A stretch of DNA of 64,000 nt from Candidatus Saccharimonadota bacterium (GTDB lineage: Bacteria > Patescibacteriota > Saccharimonadia > Saccharimonadales > Saccharimonadaceae): contig JAFUCJ010000006.1 in the NCBI GenBank assembly GCA_017459705.1, forward strand, positions 62,001-126,000. The letters run 5' to 3'. Both the position numbers and the translations under genes were made by a program. The notes below the pieces were generated by a model, which ran no database searches, had not been told where the DNA came from, and saw only the letters and a program-made list of their open reading frames with translations. Every line of letters begins with the position of its first letter. Positions within the stretch are counted from its first letter, which is position 1. Of this stretch, positions 41,736 to 54,678 are shown one piece after another.

Positions 41736-41772
41736 GCTTGCGGAGCGTTGATGCATTTTTGTGAAACAAAAA

Positions 41773-41793
41773 TGGTGCTGGAAGTAGGACTCG
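41773..41793 (-). repeat. second copy of the tRNA-Tyr 3' end
   Basis: These 21 bases equal 41850-41870, the T-loop to CCA end of tRNA-Tyr, 77 bp away. Between the copies the minus strand reads a TTTTTTGTGC/GCACAAAAAA palindrome then AAAAAGCAGGGCATCGG and a short hairpin. This is the look of an integrase attachment duplication. Confidence 0.85.
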
Positions 41794-41849
41794 TTGGCGT
41801 CAGCCCGATGCCCTGCTTTTTGAGTATTTTTTGTGCAAAGCACAAAAAA

Positions 41850-41934
41850 TGGTGCTGGAAGTAGGACTCGAACCTACGAAGGCCGAAGCCGAGAGATTTA
41901 CAGTCTCTTGTCATTGCCACTAGACGATTCCAGC
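41850..41934 (-). tRNA. tRNA-Tyr(GTA)
   Basis: An 85-nt class II tRNA on the minus strand: acceptor GCTGGAA/TTCCAGC, anticodon stem AGAGA/TCTCT with loop CTGTAAA (anticodon GTA), a long variable arm CGGCTTCGGCC, T arm GTAGG/CCTAC, discriminator A and encoded CCA. It lies downstream of tRNA-Thr(GGT), probably co-transcribed. Confidence 0.95.
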
Positions 41935-54273: not shown

Positions 54274-54350
54274 GGGGATTTAGCTCAGCTGGCTGGAGCG
54301 TACGATTCACATTCGTAAGGTCATAGGTTCGAGCCCTATAATCCCCACCA
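54274..54350 (+). tRNA. tRNA-Val(CAC)
   Basis: A 77-nt cloverleaf: acceptor GGGGATT/AATCCCC, D arm GCTC/GAGC, anticodon stem TACGA/TCGTA with loop TTCACAT (anticodon CAC), T arm ATAGG/CCTAT, discriminator A, encoded CCA. GTGATATAAT lies about 10 nt upstream. The 3' end is copied again in the repeats that follow. Confidence 0.95.
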
Positions 54351-54557
54351 TTTATTATCAAAAAATGTCAAAAAAGGTAGGGCATCGGTCTCACTCCGTT
54401 CGGGGCGAGCCCTATAATCCCCACCATTTATTATCAAAAAATGTCAAAAAAGGTAGGGCATCGGTCTCACTCCGTTCGGGGCGAGCCCTATAATCCCCAC
54501 CATTTTTTTTTGTGAAAAAACGTAAAAGCAGGGCATTGGAGCTCGCTCTGCTCGGTG
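54330..54557 (+). repeat. tandem 76-bp repeats carrying the tRNA-Val 3' end
   Basis: The last 21 bases of tRNA-Val (54330-54350) recur at 54406-54426 and 54482-54502. Each is followed by a 55-nt spacer; the first two spacers are identical and the third is diverged but the same length. The spacers contain GTAGGGCATCGG (units 1 and 2) or GCAGGGCATTGG (unit 3) and a small hairpin just before the next CGAG. The array stops with CGAG at about 54558. There is no gene in 54351-54678 that I can support. Confidence 0.92.
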
Positions 54558-54678
54558 CGAGTTGTATATTGAATATAAAGCCCTATTTCTTGGTTTGGAT
54601 AAAAGTAGAAATTCGTGTATTAACATAAACTTTTTGTGGTATAATGGAGAAAGTAGGTCATATAAATAAGGAAGGTCC

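Follow-up and report, generated by a model that had tools for sequence, protein, structure and literature searches.

What places the last bases of a tRNA gene, in tandem and behind that same gene, next to sequence that is foreign to it? The window (the whole stretch of DNA analysed, 64,000 nucleotides, G000:C10:62001-126000, from a genome of 728 kb in 10 contigs) raises this question at two loci, tRNA-Val(CAC) and tRNA-Tyr(GTA). Here, we propose that the repeat at both is rtT-like, structured and non-autonomous, and that on inserting at the 3' end of a tRNA gene it copies that end, a reading to which we give about an even chance.

Repeat units in the window

A first-pass annotation had described 76-bp units behind tRNA-Val that recopy its last 21 bases and a single 77-bp unit behind tRNA-Tyr that recopies that gene's own last 21 bases. 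Both descriptions are borne out: the Val copies are exact at 54406-54426 and 54482-54502, the Tyr copy was found at 41773-41793, and the copy at the end of every intact unit of the window is identical to C56-A76 of its own tRNA at 21 of 21 positions. The tandem Val array is also there, extended by a third, decayed unit (about 54503-54592) that had been missed.

54274-54350, + strand: tRNA-Val(CAC), the host gene, with its last 21 nt (54330-54350) as the template of the copies (ARAGORN, Rfam tRNA)
54351-54405, + strand: foreign part of Val unit 1, with an A/T-rich stretch, an A-run, the antisense arm GTAGGGCATCGG (54377-54388) and an inner hairpin (sequence; fold z -2.1)
54406-54426, + strand: copy 1 of tRNA-Val C56-A76 (exact match)
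54427-54502, + strand: Val unit 2, same sequence as unit 1, with the tRNA end copy at 54482-54502 (TRF 100%; model match 54448-54491)
about 54503-54592, + strand: Val unit 3, decayed and different in sequence, with the antisense arm GCAGGGCATTGG and CGAG kept and the tRNA part eroded (sequence)
41850-41934, - strand: tRNA-Tyr(GTA), the host gene (ARAGORN)
41794-41849, - strand: foreign part of the Tyr unit, with a 10-bp A/T hairpin, an A-run, the antisense arm GCAGGGCATCGG (41805-41816) and an inner hairpin (sequence)
41773-41793, - strand: copy of tRNA-Tyr C56-A76, giving a unit of 77 bp (exact match)
41747-41772, - strand: probable remainder of hairpin 1 from one more unit, since lost (TTTTTGTTTCACAAAAATGCATCAAC; sequence compared with hairpin 1 of other units)

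Val units 1 and 2 repeat with a period of 76 at 100% identity across 176 bp (TRF score 352). A covariance model of the type-1 hairpin (45 positions), whose training set includes three of the four window units, scores these four at E 2e-7 to 2e-12 and has no other match there; matches to Val unit 1 (54372-54415, E 2e-12), Val unit 3 (54523-54567, E 1e-9) and the Tyr unit (41784-41821, E 2e-7; fold z -3.1) complete that given above for Val unit 2. Fold z is about -2 to -3 for the intact hairpins of the window, whereas the decayed unit shows no such folding. As judged by the model, the structure of the window units as a whole is not a product of chance.

A 12-mer shared by the spacers with at most one mismatch had been described as a core common to two unrelated tRNA loci. 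The sharing stands, with GCAGGGCATCGG exact at 41805-41816 (-) and differing by one mismatch at 54377, 54453 and 54528 in a scan of the window. It is not a core independent of the tRNA: the 12-mer pairs with the T-arm and changes from one tRNA to another. GCAGGGCATCGG is, read from its sequence, an imperfect reverse complement of the tRNA T-arm, predicted to form a hairpin with the copy. Taken alone the 12-mer is weak evidence for the repeat, and the window holds 9 matches with up to two mismatches where 4.7 are expected.

As a separate observation, many tRNA genes of this genome, including that at 54274-54350, have a T-run directly 3' of CCA, as if the tRNA were itself a terminator hairpin.

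Unit structure

An alignment of 22 units from five tRNA types (Val, Tyr, Trp, Gln and Ser) gives a common plan. From CCA of the host tRNA, the unit runs through hairpin 1, an A-run, the antisense T-arm (GCAGGAC-a-TCG), a three-base helix with a TC-GC-TTC-GC-TC hairpin, and CGAG, with which the sense copy begins that leads on to the next CCA. The foreign part of such a type-1 unit is about 55 bp long, to which the 21-bp copy is added, and the A-run is near-invariant in this alignment. Alignment cells within the hairpin are paired in 86.7% of cases vs 78.8% after shuffling, the covariation score is 0.290 vs 0.161 (0/500 shuffles), and controls in which the pairing is slid collapse. DNA and RNA folding energies do not separate the top strand of the hairpin from the bottom strand.

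Type-2 units are longer (about 165 nt), with the plan arm-GAGAACC-loop-GGTTCG and two further hairpins, and occur at tRNA-Tyr of several congeners and at Val-TAC in the window genome. In the base stem, the T-arm part is paired in type-1 units, and only in the long type-2 units is the acceptor part paired as well.

Other repeats and conserved stretches lie in the same position. Downstream of tRNA-Tyr at five loci (L239, L241, L253, L214 and L219) we observed a third repeat type of about 110 bp, also behind tRNAs, which has a nearly perfect outer inverted repeat (TTATTTGAG..AAAAGCCGGC ... GCCGGCTTTT..CTCAAATAA) and conserved inner motifs. Behind tRNA-Val in several congeners (L198, L203, L184, L182 and L186) there is a conserved, seemingly non-coding stretch (GGTTATAAAATAGTTTTCAACTATTTCGTAATC...TGTTAAATCCCTC) that might be a structured RNA; that it is tracrRNA-like would be a guess.

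Distribution in the genome, genus and order

In the window genome, 9 of the 46 tRNAs are followed by at least 18 nt copied from their own 3' end (Val-CAC, Tyr, Ser-CGA, Gln-CTG, Arg-CCT twice, Leu-GAG twice, Met, Ser-GGA and Ser-TGA), and weaker traces follow Ser-GCT, Phe, Gly-GCC and Val-TAC. Upstream of all 46 tRNAs, as a control, no end copies were found apart from neighbouring tRNA genes. The tRNA-Met copy was rejected as a repeat unit; it is a decayed tandem tRNA duplicate of an ordinary kind. The first-pass annotation had staked its case on the element being present at other tRNAs of the genome, and units with a preserved tRNA part do lie at Ser-CGA and Gln-CTG. Across the whole genome, exact GGGCATCGG with CGAG within the next 30 nt is confined to the Val and Tyr loci. 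All six type-1 matches of the model in the window genome sit behind tRNAs.

Across the genus, the type-1 model has 92 matches in 32 of 60 genomes. A same-strand tRNA lies within 700 nt upstream of 64 of the 87 located matches, and in 53 of these 64 the copy agrees with the end of that upstream tRNA at 18/21 positions or better; many of the remaining located matches, once re-oriented, are also behind a tRNA. Several of these counts rest on scripts with fixed thresholds and on draft assemblies in which the number of units may be off. Type-1 units have at least 16 tRNA species as hosts, which bears out the earlier view of one element type carrying a different tRNA end at each site. Among 149 genomes drawn more widely from the order, two match, both of the same genus, and about 143 genomes of the order outside that genus have none. 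Two genomes, one from a different genus of this family and one from a different family of the order, have tRNA-end copies with unrelated, longer structured spacers at 7 of 36 tRNA loci. Viral contigs scanned for type-1 and type-2 patterns gave nothing or chance matches, and a 16-base pattern scan of genome contigs was unspecific, with matches scattered over unrelated phyla.

In one draft genome, a type-1 unit with a tRNA-Tyr-like end lies behind tRNA-Thr(TGT) (L363, G023:C21), and there is no tRNA-Tyr match in that draft; this unit outlived its tRNA or was separated from it.

Junctions, filled and empty sites, and fit to the target

Where does the copy begin and end? Over 84 copies, taken from 22 tRNA types and in part from outside the type-1 family, agreement with the tRNA is 0.25 at position 55, as by chance (0.25), and 0.90-0.95 at positions 56-58, which places the junction at T55|C56. 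Positions 56 and 58 are nearly invariant in tRNAs, and so the edge looks sharper than the true start, somewhere within 56-59, can be fixed. Beyond CCA, identity continues for 0 to 24 nt or more, with a mean of 5.1 vs 1.0 for shuffled partners, due in part to tandem units; at one tRNA-Asn locus a complete 24-nt terminator is duplicated along with the end. The inner edge is thus fixed and the outer edge is not.

A filled and an empty site can be compared at tRNA-Val, where one species of the genus (G006) has exactly one 76-bp unit more than another (G044), with an identical tRNA and a like flank. The site is also empty, with a related flank, in five further species (G055, G057, G010, G036 and G026), and presence at one and the same tRNA is patchy among congeners. 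The simplest reading of the filled/empty difference is a gain; precise loss between the 21-nt repeats gives the same picture. At tRNA-Tyr of three genomes (G048, G039 and G054), different units stand in tandem, and duplication alone is therefore insufficient. The units had been described as a mobile or recombination-driven repeat that rebuilds the tRNA. With a clean filled and empty site, their behaviour is that of a repeat driven by recombination, with the tRNA kept intact; that they actively move we infer.

The antisense arm fits its target. Across 57 units at 16 tRNA types, nearly all outside the model training set, the arm scores 9.59 against the variable part of its own tRNA vs 8.07 against permuted partners (0/2000), and in a cruder test that included E. 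coli, the own tRNA ranked in the top three of about 45 for 23 of 37 units. This fit may reflect selection for pairing or a second copying step.

Genes between end copies

Among about 90 units, four small gene-bearing segments and one serine-recombinase island were found between end copies:

Tyr, G026: 323-aa ORF
Ser-CGA, G049: 258-aa ORF, with one weak partial match in 117 other genomes
Gln-TTG, G010: 101-aa ORF
Val-TAC, G010: two ORFs
Leu-GAG, G026: 5.8-kb ordinary island led by a serine recombinase

At L236 (1144-2420), L355 (2242-3257), L356 (Gln-TTG) and L352 (Val-TAC), genes of unknown family are enclosed by tRNA 3'-end copies in the manner of gene cassettes, and a Pfam scan of four of the small proteins found between end copies gave no family above the cut-off. 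Large serine recombinases occur at L353 (2299-7500), beside tRNA-Leu(GAG) and accompanied by DNA methyltransferase-like genes, and at L350 (3052-5662), near a Ser-CGA unit. We regard L353 and L350 as integrative islands of an ordinary kind, with these tRNA ends as their targets or neighbours.

Discussion

In light of these findings, how might a unit come to lie behind its tRNA? Under insertion with copying, the foreign part of about 55 bp would arrive downstream of a tRNA with its right end anchored in the T-loop, and would be joined at T55|C56 to a newly made copy of the 3' end of its target, which would keep the tRNA functional. The self-complementary TCGA motif of the T-loop could prime synthesis (by priming or template switching), and the target's 3' end and some flank would then be copied outward, rather than exchanged by a conservative recombinase. 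Such outward copying from the T-loop would let any tRNA be hit without damage and leave only one edge fixed; tandem arrays could grow by more insertions or by slippage between copies. A conservative tyrosine recombinase, judged by known tRNA-targeting integrases, would depend on cores that match and would replace the tRNA end with a foreign one.

Several points weigh against insertion. No enzyme was identified for the units and none of the viral contigs scanned held a copy; the clean empty site could also be explained by deletion between the 21-nt repeats; the inner hairpins might descend within one tRNA type, with little movement between tRNAs; and the matching arm needs selection for pairing or a second copying step. 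Known enzymes were considered as candidates. The Y1 transposase (PF01797) of REP/RAYT and IS200/IS605 is absent from 58 of the 60 genus genomes, including the window's own, and the known hairpin transposases are therefore unlikely. Integration by Cas1 or a casposase was rejected as well, with Cas1 (PF01867) in 7 genomes only, none of which has type-1 matches. An XerC-like tyrosine recombinase is nearly universal (58 of 60 genomes; G000:C8:13334-13867 in the window genome), does not lie at the arrays and is kept as a candidate.

The unit could instead be a selected RNA element, co-transcribed with the tRNA and having a part in 3' processing or a role as decoy, sponge or terminator, given that the A-run by the antisense arm gives the reverse strand the look of a hairpin and T-tract. 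Strong covariation, the near-invariant A-run and the site directly behind the tRNA agree with this, as do reports of rtT as an RNA from the tyrT transcript (PMC4986893, PMC2965389); but the patchy presence among congeners at the same tRNA and the existence of decayed copies speak against it, a consensus scan calls no reverse-strand terminator in the window, and the next open frame past the Val array appears co-directional. We consider such a role unlikely, if worth keeping in mind. The genes between end copies at five loci, together with the heterogeneous tandem units and the widespread XerC-like recombinase, recall integrons, in which case the folded hairpin would be a recombinase attachment site, the tRNA 3' end the primary site, and most units empty cassettes. 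We rate this as improbable, as the junction has no GTTRRRY core, the far edge is variable, few units hold a gene and the arrays appear to have no linked integrase. A broader version, which we find improbable but slightly less so, is a tRNA-anchored, integron-like cassette system in Saccharibacteria, in which the T-arm-mimicking hairpins would serve as attachment sites and a recombinase or T-loop-primed synthesis would insert cassettes, mostly empty and some with genes, behind many tRNAs, rebuilding the tRNA end. If it were true, E. coli rtT would be a relative of this process, or a fossil of it, in a different phylum.

Two more ordinary origins are less probable again, and we rate them alike as very improbable. 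Tandem duplication or slippage of a tRNA gene followed by loss of the tRNA body accounts for the tRNA-Met copy, and identical Val units 1 and 2 are what simple tandem duplication would give, but the units contain no tRNA body, the family-conserved foreign 55 bp sit precisely at an otherwise empty site, and the same family lies behind at least 16 tRNA species; the shared foreign sequence largely refutes this origin. Alternatively, each copy would be the attR left after loss of a tRNA-targeting island or prophage. End copies of about 20 nt are typical of att sites and serine-recombinase islands adjoin units in two genomes (G026 and G012), yet independent islands do not leave one conserved hairpin unit of 55 bp, with no integrase and no coding room, behind at least 16 tRNAs.

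Insertion with copying of the tRNA end, as we propose, has a fixed T-loop junction and a variable far edge, which make its mechanism directly testable, and the gene-bearing cases could reveal a route of gene gain in tiny genomes. In a distant phylum, at least 16 tRNA species are followed by units that have the architecture of rtT and an inner sequence unrelated to it; together with the long forms in another genus and family, this suggests that hairpin repeats that copy tRNA ends may be a general and overlooked class.

Comparison with known systems

The first-pass annotation knew of no described family of this form. The form does have a precedent, since E. coli rtT (Rfam RF00391) has the same build at tRNA-Tyr, -Lys and -Arg. 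rtT was described from one E. coli tRNA operon. Published work presents it as an RNA that is released from tRNA operons, tyrT among them, and rtT-like elements as resembling or overlapping BIMEs (PMC4986893, PMC2965389). At tyrT of E. coli MG1655, we found that the RtT units end with the tRNA-Tyr 3' end and that their base stem consists of an antisense and a sense tRNA strand; the element also lies behind tRNA-Lys genes (Rfam matches) and tRNA-Arg genes (by sequence), each time with the gene's own end and a matched arm. A literature search of partial coverage found no description of such repeats in Saccharibacteria.

Both rtT and the units described here stand behind a tRNA with a hairpin, an antisense of the T-arm/acceptor, one or more inner hairpins and an end copy that includes CCA. 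They differ in that the inner sequence is unlike, the E. coli copy starts at about position 58/59 and here at 56, and the E. coli units lie inside tRNA operons. The Rfam RtT model has no match in the window, nor, at E up to 3, in any of ten loci that bear units (E. coli control, 132-137 bits), the type-1 model has none in E. coli, and no Rfam family fits the window units or the ten loci. Because the architecture is common to both and sequence homology was found in neither direction, the units are built like rtT and membership of that family is not supported; by sequence, they appear to form a family of their own, with the behaviour of a mobile repeat.

Integron attC sites share the tandem heterogeneous units, a few of which here appear to carry a gene, and the imperfect hairpin whose 3' part is the primary site; here, however, the border is TT|CGA of the T-loop (84 copies) with no GTTRRRY core, no IntI appears to be linked, the site is in tRNA genes, most units have no genes and the far edge is variable. 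With tRNA-targeting islands (P4-like or serine-integrase), the units have in common a repeat of about 20 nt that runs from T-loop to CCA and rebuilds the tRNA, but here 55 bp with no integrase gene recur as the same unit at many tRNAs. REP/BIME elements with RAYT are likewise small intergenic hairpin repeats, and differ in the Y1 transposase, which the window's own genome, like nearly all of the genus, does not have.
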